From positions 2,554,270-2,618,269 of the forward strand of contig NC_015666.1 of the NCBI RefSeq assembly GCF_000217715.1: a DNA stretch of 64,000 bases, written 5' to 3'. Shown here piece after piece: positions 56,643 to 61,285 of this stretch (positions are counted from its first letter, which is position 1; each line of letters opens with the position of its first letter). The notes beneath the pieces were generated by a model. The model saw only the letters and a list, made by a program, of their open reading frames with translations, made no database searches and was not told the origin of the DNA. Source of the DNA: Halopiger xanaduensis SH-6. GTDB lineage: Archaea > Halobacteriota > Halobacteria > Halobacteriales > Natrialbaceae. The translations under genes and the position numbers were made by a program.

Positions 56643-56981
56643 TCAGTTAGAACACCTCTGTATACGCCGTTTTCGTGCAGCAGTAACTTGCTGGGGTGCA
56701 CTTTAACATATCTATCTGTGCTCCTCTAACCCGGGACTCGCAACTAGACGCGGTTCAAATGTAGACCCGATTTCCACGGCGCGAGAATCGGGCCGAACAT
56801 ATTCGCATCTATAAGTTAGATTGCTATCGACCTCCGTTACATCTCGTGTCACACGTTACCGCAATTCGTTACGCGAAACCGGCCGAGCCATAAATCGACT
56901 CGAGGGCCGTAAACCGCTCGAGGACGGCCCGGCCGCTCGTTCGGCTCAAAATATTTGTCGCGAGCGCGCCGACCGTCACGT
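56643..56981. other. Regulatory gap with an unassigned CGAA-N4-TTCG promoter
   Basis: 338 nt between the Fe-S operon and the cupin gene. It holds the Fe-S operon TATA (about 56667) and an inverted GCACTTTAAC...CTGTGC element (56699-56723). A CGAACATATTCG site (56794-56805) is followed at once by the TATA-like CTATAAG (56809-56815) pointing right. The distance to the TATA matches those at the regulated genes, but the only start codon at the right place is GTG 56846, which opens a 15-codon frame (TAA at 56891). Function of this promoter is unknown. Confidence 0.5.
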
Positions 56982-57326: not shown

Positions 57327-58001
57327 TTAGTTCGCCGCGAGTTGTTCCTCGAGCGACTCCTCCCCGTCGAGCCCGGGCAGATCCTCGACGAACCGCTTGA
57401 TGATCGCCTCCTCGGCCCGGTGGAGCGTCTCGCTGCAGGTCGATTTCGCGATGTCGAGGTGTTCCGCCAGTTCCGTCAGCGAACACTGCCGCGGCGTGTC
57501 GTAGTACCCCTTCTCGACGGCGGCGGCGACGACCTCGAGTTGGCGCTCCGAGAGGAGTTGACTCTCGTGGAGCCGCTCGCGGACGTTGTCGATGCGGTAC
57601 TGGAGCCCGAAGTGCTCGAGTTGCTCGGCGAGTTCGGCGAGCCGGTCCCGCGATCCCGTCACCTCGATGGTCGCCTCGCCGTCGGCGATCTCGACGGGGA
57701 GTTCGATCGGCATCCCCGACTCCTGCGAGGAAAAGAGCAGGAGCGGCGCGGTCGTCTCGAAGTGGACCGTCGCCTCGTTGTCGCTCCACTGCGCGAGCGT
57801 GAGCTCGGTGATCTGGGGGTGCTCCGTCATGTCGTCGACGATCTCCGGTACCTTCGACCCGGCGATCCGAACGAGCGCGAACCCCGTGTCGGATCCCGGA
57901 ACGCCCGCTAACACGCGAAACGTCGCGTCGGGATACTCCGTGGAGAGCTGCTGGATCCAGAGCTGGTCGGGCATCGTGACCGTCAGTGTCGCCTGTGCCA
58001 T
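57327..58001 (-). CDS. HTH-10 (Bat-like) DNA-binding regulator
   Basis: 224 residues from the ATG at 58001. The C-terminal HTH_10 domain reads LSERQLEVVAAAVEKGYYDT, TELAEHLDIAKSTCSETLHR. The N-terminal domain (beta-rich, PDQLWIQQLSTEYPDATFRV) resembles bacterioopsin-activator-like proteins but has no N-terminal Cys cluster; the two Cys lie in the HTH. It is divergent from three DUF2249 genes, and CGAATATGTTCG (58040-58051) is centred 44.5 nt before its own start, so it probably autoregulates. Role as the regulator of the whole cluster is inferred. Confidence 0.85.
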   Translation of the reverse strand: MAQATLTVTMPDQLWIQQLSTEYPDATFRVLAGVPGSDTGFALVRIAGSKVPEIVDDMTEHPQITELTLAQWSDNEATVHFETTAPLLLFSSQESGMPIELPVEIADGEATIEVTGSRDRLAELAEQLEHFGLQYRIDNVRERLHESQLLSERQLEVVAAAVEKGYYDTPRQCSLTELAEHLDIAKSTCSETLHRAEEAIIKRFVEDLPGLDGEESLEEQLAAN

Positions 58002-58039
58002 ACGCGAATATCCTAGGTGTAGCTCTATACCCGTAGCGA

Positions 58040-58051
58040 CGAATATGTTCG
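58040..58051 (-). promoter_or_regulatory. CGAA-N4-TTCG site 1 (regulator gene)
   Basis: CGAATATGTTCG, centred 44.5 nt upstream of the HTH-10 regulator ATG (58001). A TATA-like GGTATAG (58026-58032 region) on the minus strand lies between. Spacing is the same as at the DUF2249 genes. Confidence 0.65.
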
Positions 58052-58084
58052 TCGGAATTCCTACGGCGTGGGAATTCCCCCGCA

Positions 58085-58096
58085 CGAACACGTTCG
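58085..58096 (+). promoter_or_regulatory. CGAA-N4-TTCG site 2 (first DUF2249 gene)
   Basis: CGAACACGTTCG, centred 45.5 nt upstream of the ATG at 58136. The TATA region is poor (AACACGAAT), as expected when an activator is needed. Confidence 0.65.
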
Positions 58097-58135
58097 CAGG
58101 AATGCCCAACACGAATCCGGCGGTATCCACAACCG

Positions 58136-58360
58136 ATGGCAACTAACACCGCTGACCGCACGCTCGACGTGCGCGAGATCGATGGCCCGCCGTTCGACGA
58201 CATCATGTCGGCGCTGCGCACGCTGAACGCGGGCGAACGCCTCGAGTTGATCGCGCCCTTCGAGCCGAAGCCCCTCTACAACGTGCTCGAGTCGCGCGGC
58301 TATACCTACGAGAGCGAGCAGCGCGACGGGGTCTGGCACGTGTTAATCGAGGAGGCCTGA
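58136..58360 (+). CDS. DUF2249 (TusA-like) protein 1
   Basis: 74 residues. Starts MATNTADRTLDVREIDGPPF, carries the core FEPKPLYNVLESRGYTYESE and ends VWHVLIEEA, as in DUF2249 proteins, which share the TusA (SirA) beta-alpha-beta fold. Found with NirK and other denitrification genes in haloarchaea. Possibly binds a redox- or metal-cofactor or a partner protein; function not established. It has its own promoter with a CGAA-N4-TTCG site. Confidence 0.83.
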   Translation: MATNTADRTLDVREIDGPPFDDIMSALRTLNAGERLELIAPFEPKPLYNVLESRGYTYESEQRDGVWHVLIEEA

Positions 58361-58395
58361 TCCGGCACGACGGCGATCTGCCTCGGTCCGAGATG

Positions 58396-58407
58396 CGAAC
58401 GTGTTCG
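58396..58407 (+). promoter_or_regulatory. CGAA-N4-TTCG site 3 (second DUF2249 gene)
   Basis: CGAACGTGTTCG, centred 46.5 nt upstream of the ATG at 58448. Same layout as sites 1 and 2. Confidence 0.65.
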
Positions 58408-58447
58408 GGCAAACACGGACGGGAGCGCCGAACCGACGTCCACCCGC

Positions 58448-58681
58448 ATGACGCGACTCGACGTCAGGGACATCCCGCCGGTGAACCGCCACCCGACCAT
58501 CCACGAGGAGTTCGAGGACTTAGCGCCCGGCGAGACGCTAACGATCGTCAACGATCACGAGCCGAAGCCGCTGTTCTACGAGTTCCAGGCCGAAGTCGAG
58601 AGCTTCGACGCCGACAACTACGAGGTCGAACGGGTCGGCCCGGAGGAATTCGTCGCGAAGTTCCCGAAAGTAGAGGCGTAG
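58448..58681 (+). CDS. DUF2249 (TusA-like) protein 2
   Basis: 77 residues. MTRLDVRDIPPVNRHPTIHE, then DLAPGETLTIVNDHEPKPLF and YEVERVGPEEFVAKFPKVEA. Matches paralogue 1 at LDVR(D/E)I and EPKPL. An activator site and promoter of its own precede it, so expression can differ from the neighbours in spite of the tandem order. Confidence 0.83.
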   Translation: MTRLDVRDIPPVNRHPTIHEEFEDLAPGETLTIVNDHEPKPLFYEFQAEVESFDADNYEVERVGPEEFVAKFPKVEA

Positions 58682-58716
58682 AGCCACAGCCGCGGTGTCG
58701 GTCACGGCTTCCCGAC

Positions 58717-58728
58717 CGAACACGTACG
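58717..58728 (+). promoter_or_regulatory. CGAA-N4-TTCG-like site 4, one mismatch (third DUF2249 gene)
   Basis: CGAACACGTACG: the right arm reads TACG rather than TTCG. Centred 44.5 nt upstream of the ATG at 58767, the same position as in sites 1-3, so it is likely functional though weaker. Confidence 0.5.
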
Positions 58729-58766
58729 GCACGAAAGATAGCTCGCTTCCCGTCGATCACTCGCGT

Positions 58767-59042
58767 ATGCAGTCACCCGCGTCCGTCGTCGACCGCACCG
58801 ACGCACCGACCGACCGACCGCGAGAGACGATCGACGTGCGATCGCTCGGCCCGCCTGAGCCGCTGAAGCGGACTCTCGAGACCCTCGTCGACCTGTCCGA
58901 CGAGACGGTGCTCGTCCAGCGCAACGACCGGGTGCCCCAGTTCCTCTTCCCGAAACTCGAGGATCGGGGCTACGCTCACGAGAGCGTGGAACTCGAGGGC
59001 GAGGACGAAGTGGTGACCGTTATCTGGTCGCCCGACGCCTGA
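58767..59042 (+). CDS. DUF2249 (TusA-like) protein 3
   Basis: 91 residues from the ATG at 58767. MQSPASVVDRTDAPTDRPRE is an extra leading segment; the fold begins TIDVRSLGPPEPLKRTLETL and ends ESVELEGEDEVVTVIWSPDA. The EPKPL motif of the other two copies is replaced by RVPQFLFPKLEDRGYAHE, so it has diverged. Third of the tandem set. Confidence 0.8.
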   Translation: MQSPASVVDRTDAPTDRPRETIDVRSLGPPEPLKRTLETLVDLSDETVLVQRNDRVPQFLFPKLEDRGYAHESVELEGEDEVVTVIWSPDA

Positions 59043-59098
59043 CCCCGAGCCGCGCTCGCCGGCGGCCGCTCGCATTTCTCCGCTACTCGGCACCCAGA

Positions 59099-60013
59099 CT
59101 ACTCGCCACCCAGATGCTCGAGCAGCGTCGCCGTCAGCCGCTCGGGCTCCTCGTGTTGCACCCAGTGGCTCGTCCCCTCGAACAGCTCGAGGCGCCGCCC
59201 CTCGCGGGCGCAGTAGTCGTAGCTGTCGACGACCAGTTCGGTTCCCAGCGCCGCGTCGTCGGTGCCCCAGGCGAGCAGCGTCGGCGCCTCGACGCGGTCC
59301 CGCGGTGGGTTCGTCCCGTATCTGGCGCTCGCCCGGTACCAGTTGATCATCGCGGTCAGCGCTCCGTCCCGGCTCCACGCGCGCCGGTAGTGCTCGAGAT
59401 CCGCGTCGGAGAAGGTTCCCGGCGCCGACGTCCCACGAAGGGCGCGCTCGAGGAGTCGGAAGTCGTCGTACCGGCAGCATAGTTCGGGCAACCGGGGCAC
59501 CTGGAAGCAGGCGGCGTACCAGCTCCGGCGCATCTGTGCGGGGTTCGATCGGAGGTGGCGCTGAAACACGGTCGGGTGGGGCGCGTTGACGATCGCGAGC
59601 CGATCGACGACTTCGTGGTGGCGAAGCGCGAGGTCCCAGGCGACCATCCCGCCCCAGTCGTGGCCGACGACGTGGGCGGCGTCTCGATCCGCCGATCCGA
59701 TCAGTTCGACGATATCTCGGGAAAGCTGTTTCTGATGATACGCACGCACTGGCGCTGGCTTCTCGCTCAGATTGTAGCCGCGCTGATCGGGCACGAGCAC
59801 CCGGTAACCGGCGTCGACGAGCGGACCGATCTGTTCGTGCCAGCCGTACCAGAACTCCGGAAACCCGTGGAGCAAGACGACGAGCGGGTCATTCGGATCG
59901 CCGGCGGCGACGACGTGGAGGTCGACGCCGTTGACGGTCCGCACGTCGGTCGTCGCGTCGACCGACGATAGTTTCGACGCGTCCGCTTGCGGGGACACTG
60001 CGTTCGCGCTCAT
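59099..60013 (-). CDS. Alpha/beta hydrolase (epoxide-hydrolase-like)
   Basis: 304 residues from the ATG at 60013 (MSANAVSPQADASKLSSVDA). LHGFPEFWYGWHEQIGPLVD is the oxyanion-hole HGFPE motif, VVGHDWGGMVAWDLALRHHE carries the nucleophile Asp (GHDWGG), and the catalytic His is in FEGTSHWVQHEEPERL. An Asp nucleophile suggests epoxide hydrolase or haloalkane dehalogenase rather than esterase. It is divergent from nirK. The TTG at 60043 is a less likely start. Confidence 0.9.
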   Translation of the reverse strand: MSANAVSPQADASKLSSVDATTDVRTVNGVDLHVVAAGDPNDPLVVLLHGFPEFWYGWHEQIGPLVDAGYRVLVPDQRGYNLSEKPAPVRAYHQKQLSRDIVELIGSADRDAAHVVGHDWGGMVAWDLALRHHEVVDRLAIVNAPHPTVFQRHLRSNPAQMRRSWYAACFQVPRLPELCCRYDDFRLLERALRGTSAPGTFSDADLEHYRRAWSRDGALTAMINWYRASARYGTNPPRDRVEAPTLLAWGTDDAALGTELVVDSYDYCAREGRRLELFEGTSHWVQHEEPERLTATLLEHLGGE

Positions 60014-60086
60014 ACCCGTCCGTACGACGCCGCAGGCTTTCAACCTCTGCCGTTATGGCGCAGCGATATCGATCGAGACGTCTACC

Positions 60087-60098
60087 CGAACATGTTCG
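60087..60098 (+). promoter_or_regulatory. CGAA-N4-TTCG site 5 (nirK)
   Basis: CGAACATGTTCG, a perfect 12-bp palindrome between the alpha/beta hydrolase and nirK. With the usual 45-nt spacing the transcription start falls near 60137, leaving a leader of about 40 nt that holds GAGGAG (60163-60168), a Shine-Dalgarno before the ATG at 60176. An alternative TATA (CTTATATG, 60150-60157) would give a leaderless mRNA. Confidence 0.6.
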
Positions 60099-60175
60099 AG
60101 ATGTTTCCTTCTTTCAGGGAATCGTCGATGGACCTGTACGTATGACCACCTTATATGGGAATGAGGAGAAGGACA

Positions 60176-61285
60176 ATGACCACAACCGCAGCCAACCGAC
60201 GGCAGTTCATGCAGGCGCTCGGGGCAACAGGCGTAGTCGCAATCGCCGGTTGCCTCAGCAACGACGACGTGTCGGGGAACAGTACGACGACCGAGACCGA
60301 AGCGGTCGACGAGGGACTGCCGGCGGCGAAGGCTGCCGACGTCGACCGGATCGCCCGCGATCCGACCGACATCCCGGCTCCCGTCGACTGGACGGAGCCC
60401 CGCGAACACGACATCACGATCCGCACGAAGCGGGTCACCGCCGAGATCGAACCCGGGGTCACGTTCGACTACATGACCTTCGAGGGGCAGGTTCCCGGAC
60501 CGATGGTACGGGTCCGCAAGGGCGACCGGGTAAACCTCACGTTCGAGGTGCCCGAGGAGACGAACCTCGAGGCCCACAACGTGGACTTCCACGCGGTCTA
60601 CGGGCCAGGCGGGGGTGCCGAAGCGACGACCGTCGCGCCGGGCGACGAGCCGGCCGAGATCAGCTTCACCGCCGAGTACGCCGGCGCGTTCGTCTACCAC
60701 TGTGCGATCCCCAACATGGATCAGCACATCAGCGCCGGCATGTTCGGGACGATCCTCGTCGAGCCCGAGGAGGGACTCCCCGAAGTCGATCGGGAGTTCT
60801 ACCTGGGGCAGCACGAGATCTACACCGACGGCGCAGTCGGCGAGGAGGGCCACCACGCCTTCGACTTCGACGGCATGAAGACGGAGGACCCGACCTACGT
60901 CGTCTTCAACGGCCAGGCCTACGGCCTCACCGAGGACGGCGTCGGGGCGATGGAAGCCGAAGTCGGCGAGACCGCGCGGGTGTACTTCGCCAACGGCGGC
61001 CCGAACTTCACCAGCGCGCTACACCCGATCGGCAACGTCTGGCACCGCTACTACCGCGACGGCGACCTGCTGAGCGAGCCCGATCGGAACATCGAGACGG
61101 CGCCGGTCGCGCCCGGGACCACCACCGTCGGCGAGATGGAGTTCCCCGTCCCCGGTCCGGTCAAGATCGTCGACCACGCGCTCTCGCGGGCCGGCCGCCG
61201 CGGCGCGCTGGCCGCGATCGACGTGACGGGCGAGGAAAACCCGGAAATCTACGACGAGACGCCGGCCGACAACGAGACGCAGTGA
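60176..61285 (+). CDS. nirK: Copper-containing nitrite reductase NirK
   Basis: 369 residues from the ATG at 60176. Tat lipoprotein leader: NRRQFMQALGATGVV with lipobox IAGC (Cys26). Copper ligands are in order: H134 and C176, H184, M189 (type 1) and H139, H175, H283 (type 2), within EAHNVDFHAVYG, FVYHCAIPNMDQHISAGMFG and TSALHPIGNVW; D137 is the catalytic Asp. The C-terminal domain resembles AniA-type enzymes. It reduces nitrite to nitric oxide outside the membrane. No nitric oxide reductase is in the window. Confidence 0.93.
   Translation: MTTTAANRRQFMQALGATGVVAIAGCLSNDDVSGNSTTTETEAVDEGLPAAKAADVDRIARDPTDIPAPVDWTEPREHDITIRTKRVTAEIEPGVTFDYMTFEGQVPGPMVRVRKGDRVNLTFEVPEETNLEAHNVDFHAVYGPGGGAEATTVAPGDEPAEISFTAEYAGAFVYHCAIPNMDQHISAGMFGTILVEPEEGLPEVDREFYLGQHEIYTDGAVGEEGHHAFDFDGMKTEDPTYVVFNGQAYGLTEDGVGAMEAEVGETARVYFANGGPNFTSALHPIGNVWHRYYRDGDLLSEPDRNIETAPVAPGTTTVGEMEFPVPGPVKIVDHALSRAGRRGALAAIDVTGEENPEIYDETPADNETQ

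Follow-up and report, generated by a model that had tools for sequence, protein, structure and literature searches.

A probable three-part DUF2249 accessory module of haloarchaeal denitrification

Three small genes of the DUF2249 family stand beside a gene for an HTH-10 regulator in Halopiger xanaduensis SH-6, and comparison with bacterial sequences marks them as the counterpart of a known bacterial pair, DrpA and DrpB, in split form and with a promoter for each gene. From the anatomy of the locus, its conservation, its correspondence to the bacterial proteins and its co-occurrence with denitrification genes, we infer that the three genes (P1, P2 and P3) probably represent a three-part DUF2249 accessory module of denitrification in its split, haloarchaeal form, activated by an HTH-10 protein and working jointly. 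DUF2249 proteins recur in the denitrification clusters of archaea and bacteria, and the match of the trio to DrpA/DrpB turns these scattered genes into one three-part module. New in this analysis are the division of the genes into three orthologous groups, the correspondence of these groups to the domains of DrpA/DrpB, and a rigid promoter grammar before each gene; neither the three-part correspondence nor the conserved promoter grammar was found in the literature searched.

Such genes have been studied in Haloferax mediterranei, where, according to RNA-seq, denitrification induces a bacterioopsin-like activator and four DUF2249 genes, the latter by 3.2-8.7 log2 (PMC11218638). In the same organism, the semi-palindrome CGAAYATDKTYG precedes nar, nir, nor and nos, and mutation has demonstrated its role in nos and nor (PMC10062603). 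Points of resemblance to the present locus are the DUF2249 genes that share a nirK/nor cluster with a bacterioopsin-like activator, a related palindrome and induction in denitrification (PMC11218638, PMC10062603). However, that report does not divide its four DUF2249 proteins into P1, P2 and P3 groups and describes the motif before two of them, and the stricter published CGAAYATDKTYG misses all three DUF2249 sites described below. The original prediction for this DNA held that the function of these proteins in haloarchaea is not established, which is still true, although their induction in denitrification was published in 2024 (PMC11218638).

The locus and its three orthologous groups

The window is a stretch of 64,000 nucleotides, of which positions 57327-61285 hold the locus in question (Table 1). 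The HTH-10 gene diverges from the tandem P1, P2 and P3, which are followed by an alpha/beta-hydrolase gene and then by nirK; the P1-P2 and P2-P3 gaps each measure ~85 bp. Searches with open reading frames and profiles recovered every element of the arrangement originally predicted, that is, an HTH-10 regulator divergent from three tandem DUF2249 genes. Membership of DUF2249 was defined by a PF10006 profile score above the curated cut-off of 29.5 bits, and P1, P2 and P3 all score above it. The regulator gene has its ATG at 58001; a longer reading frame that starts with TTG and reaches 58142 would run across the promoters. The same H. xanaduensis chromosome carries another copy of nirK at a distant position (L203, C3 1838455).

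Table 1. Genes and palindromes of the locus, with positions in the window
Feature	Position	Strand	Details
HTH_10 (bacterioopsin-activator-like) regulator	57327..58001	-	224 aa; PF04967 68.5 bits, cut-off 23.1
P1, DUF2249	58136..58360	+	74 aa; PF10006 66.2 bits; FEP-PLY motif; no Cys
P2, DUF2249	58448..58681	+	77 aa; PF10006 86.3 bits; no Cys
P3, DUF2249	58767..59042	+	91 aa; PF10006 49.7 bits; PPEPL and NDRVPQ motifs; no Cys
nirK, copper-containing nitrite reductase	60155..61285	+	TIGR02376, 2.1e-109
Palindrome CGAACATATTCG before HTH_10	58040..58051	-	centre 44.5 bp from start codon
Palindrome CGAACACGTTCG before P1	58085..58096	+	centre 45.5 bp from start codon
Palindrome CGAACGTGTTCG before P2	58396..58407	+	centre 46.5 bp from start codon
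Palindrome CGAACACGTACG before P3, one mismatch	58717..58728	+	centre 44.5 bp from start codon
Palindrome CGAACATGTTCG before nirK	60087..60098	+	centre 62.5 bp from annotated ATG
Extra palindrome CGAACATATTCG	56794..56805	+	340-bp gap between NrfD/Fe-S complex genes (-) and cupin gene (+)

The three proteins had been predicted to be near-identical, which cannot be upheld: their pairwise identity in the window is only 27-32%, and they belong to three ancient orthologous groups, each of them monophyletic except that a Thermus DrpB domain joins the P1 group. Each group is recognizable by its own signature, which is FEP-PLY for P1 and RHP-IH together with NDH-PKPL for P2, where His15, His19 and His37 are conserved (99%, 88% and 99%, respectively). 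The signature of the P3 group consists of PPxPL, QxNDR-P and a terminal T-I-W. Because the P3 group is monophyletic with a signature of its own, the missing EPKPL is a property of this old group, and the suggestion that paralogue 3 has lost that motif must be given up, there having been no local loss. P3 as a recently degenerated copy is likewise ruled out by its membership of a conserved monophyletic group. Elsewhere, in a genome that lacks both P1 and P2 (G042, locus L198), a P3 remnant with an in-frame stop lies beside an intact HTH-10 gene, in an apparent decay of the module as judged from the sequence.

Palindromes and promoters of the separate genes

A palindrome of the general form CGAAC-NN-GTTCG stands before the regulator gene, before each P gene and before nirK. 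One activator-type site per DUF2249 gene, all at equal spacing, had been predicted, and this was borne out, with centres 44.5-46.5 bp before the start codons; to this we add that the promoter of the regulator itself carries a site at the same spacing, which is probably a mark of autoregulation. For the extra palindrome at 56794-56805, either the NrfD/Fe-S genes or the cupin gene could be the target. The window contains the sequence CGAACNNNTTCG 15 times where 2.2 would be expected, and 0 of 100 shuffles reached 15. The published consensus CGAAYATDKTYG matches three of the six cluster sites (56794, 58040 and 60087); those of P1, P2 and P3 fit only the relaxed CGAAC-NN-GTTCG, the P3 site with one mismatch. 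Use of the relaxed CGAAYNNRTTCG as a list of the regulon was rejected: it finds 103 palindromes genome-wide against 1 in the reversed control, but most of them have other cores.

Conservation was assessed at loci from many haloarchaeal families, a conserved site being defined as at least 8 of the 10 fixed bases at 40-50 bp before the start codon, and start codons of orthologues being set by protein alignment, independently of the site. Such a site precedes 62/67 P1 (93%), 103/107 P2 (96%) and 66/73 P3 (90%) orthologues, as well as 46/64 orthologues of the HTH-10 gene, while shuffled sequences yield it at a rate of 0.07-0.70% overall and at most 0.56% for P1, P2 and P3. The palindromes are not due to chance, since a site of the same spacing recurs in 90-96% of the P1, P2 and P3 orthologues. 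Among control neighbours, a site anywhere in 150 bp was found in 3/31 cases for the Fe-S subunit, 4/25 for mrp and 2/11 for TFB. Other genes of the region that carry it are those for the cupin (8/11) and a small membrane protein (23/42), and nirK (32/40), at other spacings.

When the P promoters are aligned on the site, AA at +10/+11, A at +17 and A/T (WW) at +33/+34 from its centre are strongly kept, P3 promoters being looser than those of P1 and P2 at +10 and +17. In the window, the corresponding bases are AA (BRE) at 58101-58102, A (TATA position) at 58108 and WW at 58124-58125 for P1, AA at 58412-58413 and A at 58419 for P2, and AA at 58734-58735 and ATA at 58738-58740 for P3. The haloarchaeal core promoter comprises the BRE CGAAA, TATA and a -10 WW, and leaderless starts are the rule in Haloferax volcanii, where they account for 72% of coding transcripts (PMC4983044). 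The spacings of the P promoters fit these elements together with what would be leaderless transcripts beginning at about the start codon.

The arrangement of the genes varies, with P1>P2 in tandem at 50 loci and P2>P3 at 39, P2 and P3 convergent at 10, and the HTH-10 gene divergent from P1 at 37 loci, from P3 at 11 and from P2 at 8. In other haloarchaeal families, the P genes are convergent, divergent or unlinked and dispersed, each keeping its site. These common tandems and the gaps of only ~85 bp could favour transcription of P2 and P3 mostly by read-through from P1, with the inner sites of minor importance, but we consider this improbable: conservation is as strong at the inner sites, with their core promoter elements, as at the first, and the sites are retained by genes that are unlinked or on opposite strands. 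The view that the trio is not a simple operon has thus gained support, as each gene has a conserved site with BRE, TATA and -10 elements that is kept when the genes are unlinked. Judging from this distribution, a separate promoter for each P gene is an ancient trait.

Kinship with DrpA and DrpB, and the predicted fold

Alignment and profile scores identify P2 as the orthologue of DrpA, and P1 and P3 as equivalents of the two DUF2249 domains of DrpB-type proteins, P1 of the first and P3 of the second. P2 shares 61% identity over 46 residues with Thermus DrpA, for which the P2 model gives 77 bits, the P1 model 30 and the P3 model 14, and bacterial single-domain partners in general score best with the P2 model (42-77 bits). 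In the two-domain proteins that were scored, namely those of Thermus (DrpB, with DUF1858), Sinorhizobium, Rhizobium, Paracoccus and Mesorhizobium, the first domain is best matched by the P1 model (48-70 bits vs 10-18 for P2) and the second by the P3 model (17-45 bits vs 7-22 for P1). A tree that includes the bacterial domains unites P1 with the N-terminal domains, P3 with the C-terminal domains and P2 with the single-domain proteins (SH-aLRT/UFBoot 92.6/95, 92.9/100 and 95.8/100, respectively). P1 and P3 are classed only as domain equivalents and not as DrpB, being separate reading frames, unlike the single polypeptide of DrpB, and neither giving a DUF1858 profile match in the window.

The bacterial genes lie downstream of nar in Thermus, near nos in Mesorhizobium, beside a Crp/Fnr regulator and a pseudoazurin gene in Paracoccus, and, in Sinorhizobium and Rhizobium, next to nirK and NnrS. 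In the nirK clusters of rhizobia (Sinorhizobium meliloti pSymA, Rhizobium sp. SSA_523), the same three domain types as in the trio are encoded, but those of P1 type and P3 type are fused, and the proteins are annotated only as containing DUF2249 domains. The DrpA/DrpB pair of Thermus thermophilus (PMC6282519) likewise offers the same three domain types linked to genes of N-oxide respiration, whereas in the window P1 and P3 are separate genes without a fused DUF1858, a palindrome precedes every gene of the trio, and an HTH-10 protein stands as regulator instead of the CRP-like DnrT. Deletion of drpAB in Thermus abolishes nitrate control of nar and removes ~90% of nitrate reductase activity; in the double mutant the NarG protein is present with little activity, and transcription is also altered (PMC6282519). 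A role of DrpA/DrpB as a nitrate sensor is only a proposal of the authors, and DrpA is reported to be periplasmic (PMC6282519). By inspection, no signal peptide was seen in the haloarchaeal sequences of 74-91 aa.

AlphaFold models of P2 (pLDDT 95.5) and P3 (pLDDT 84.2) both display a beta-alpha-beta-alpha-beta-beta topology. With the P2 model, the five chains ranked first by VIA-align all belong to the TusA family (Z 8.5-10.0), among them a TsuB domain (Z 10.0), TusA (Z 9.1) and a SirA-like protein (Z 9.0), and the top Foldseek match of the P3 model is the SirA-like 3hz7. The DUF2249 fold, as modelled for P2 and P3, is therefore that of TusA-like proteins but lacks their catalytic cysteine, the Z scores being moderate and the fold in itself showing no function. 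PDB sequence searches with P1, P2 and P3 gave no convincing relative, and the TusA profile (PF01206) stayed below its cut-off for P1 and P3. The TusA/SirA sulfurtransferases have a fold in common with the P2 and P3 models but differ by the cysteine of their catalytic CPxP, which is missing in the trio; in a P3-type domain of S. meliloti, PPEP aligns with the CPEP of TusA, placing a proline at the catalytic position. TusA-like sulfur-transfer chemistry is ruled out, as there is no cysteine in P1, P2 or P3 of the window.

The fold nevertheless lends some weight to a role in cofactor maturation and not in sensing, in which the trio, through protein contact or metal binding, would help N-oxide reductases to receive or repair their Fe-S, Mo or Cu centres, a task that TusA-like carriers perform elsewhere. 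Agreeing with such a role are a metal-sulfur cluster assembly factor among the bacterial neighbours, an Mrp-type P-loop NTPase of Haloferax larsenii in which FeS_assembly_P is fused to DUF2249, and the NarG of the Thermus drpAB double mutant, present but little active (PMC6282519). We hold maturation alone to be rather unlikely, given that P1, P2 and P3 are cysteine-free, that a proline occupies the TusA catalytic position in the bacterial P3-type domain and that transcription also changed in the Thermus mutants. The H. larsenii protein, an iron-transfer NTPase, carries its FeS_assembly_P domain N-terminally and DUF2249 C-terminally, and is encoded in a nar gene region (L143:14834-16111).

Co-occurrence, the regulator and the working of the module

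Among 194 genomes of the class, P1 is present in 116, P2 in 122, P3 in 128, nirK in 103 and nosZ in 62. The full trio is found in 109 of the 135 genomes that hold any P gene, the remaining 26 having only one or two. Phi is 0.81-0.82 among the P genes, whereas it is 0.56-0.65 between a P gene and nirK and 0.41-0.43 between a P gene and nosZ, values whose significances are inflated by the relatedness of the genomes, which makes co-occurrence p-values optimistic. All three P genes occur in 102 of the 123 genomes with nirK or nosZ, and 7 genomes with the full trio have neither.

According to the original prediction, the three proteins would be used in different amounts or conditions, or as partners of different metalloenzymes. 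Three independently used paralogues, one per metalloenzyme, would be in keeping with the separate promoters, the differing conserved motifs and the incomplete sets of P genes in 26 genomes. Their sites and spacings are alike, however, and the genes co-occur with each other more tightly than with nirK or nosZ, with no split between these two, while P1- and P3-type domains are joined in one bacterial protein; on this evidence, independent use seems quite implausible. The one-to-one match to the DrpA/DrpB domains suggests instead that the three genes cooperate and are not independent copies.

The HTH-10 group is present in 109/109 full-trio genomes and in 63/85 of the others, or 172/194 overall, including many without the trio, so that a denitrification-specific HTH-10 gene is ruled out. 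In a profile search, the regulator has neither a PAS nor a GAF domain, and its BAT score (19.8 bits) is below the cut-off of 25.8. As HTH-10 proteins are numerous in haloarchaeal genomes, as the adjacent group also occurs without the trio, and as the activator of the denitrification motif in H. mediterranei is stated to be unidentified (PMC11218638, PMC10062603), the palindromes might be read by another HTH-10 protein (NarO- or DmsR-like), leaving the adjacent regulator a different role. We find this somewhat doubtful, since the full trio never occurs without the adjacent HTH-10 group and the adjacent gene has its own site, at the same spacing, in the 46 orthologues counted above, including those of several genomes that lack the trio. 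The promoter grammar and the constant presence of the HTH-10 gene accordingly provide a testable candidate activator of haloarchaeal denitrification.

On the preferred reading of a jointly working module, low oxygen or N-oxides would cause an HTH-10 activator to bind the palindromes, which in each P promoter stand directly upstream of BRE and TATA; the likeliest such activator is the adjacent protein, acting also on its own gene. The bound protein would recruit TBP/TFB, and its own gene, P1, P2, P3 and nirK would fire together as a regulon. Pairing of P1 with P3 is proposed because P1-type and P3-type domains are fused in bacteria, and physical contact between the two is conjectured by analogy with that fusion; both may act with the His-bearing P2 as one device, which would sense N-oxides and/or help to obtain active N-oxide reductases, as in Thermus DrpA/DrpB. 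Separate promoters in haloarchaea would then replace the fixed 1:1 ratio set by the bacterial fusion. It is possible, and we put it forward more tentatively than the module itself, that a complex of P1/P3 and P2 is a general device for N-oxide sensing or reductase maturation common to archaea, Thermus and Alphaproteobacteria, for which haloarchaea use three promoters, and that the activator long sought for the haloarchaeal denitrification palindrome is the HTH-10 protein encoded next to the trio. The match to DrpA/DrpB predicts P1-P3 contact, for which haloarchaea offer a genetically tractable test system.

Two further observations concern the surroundings of DUF2249 genes. A protein of 380-460 aa (L167:5606-6964, L145:11334-12485) with what resemble multiple membrane spans and no Pfam family is encoded beside them in rhizobia, Paracoccus and Thermus and at more than 30 haloarchaeal loci with DUF2249 genes; it is absent from the 64-kb window. 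Elsewhere in the H. xanaduensis genome (contig C1, 276.7-277.7 kb, L098), a gene for a 361-aa protein made of four DUF2249 domains adjoins a molybdopterin-oxidoreductase-like gene, and similar proteins of 3-4 DUF2249 domains are encoded in many haloarchaeal genomes.
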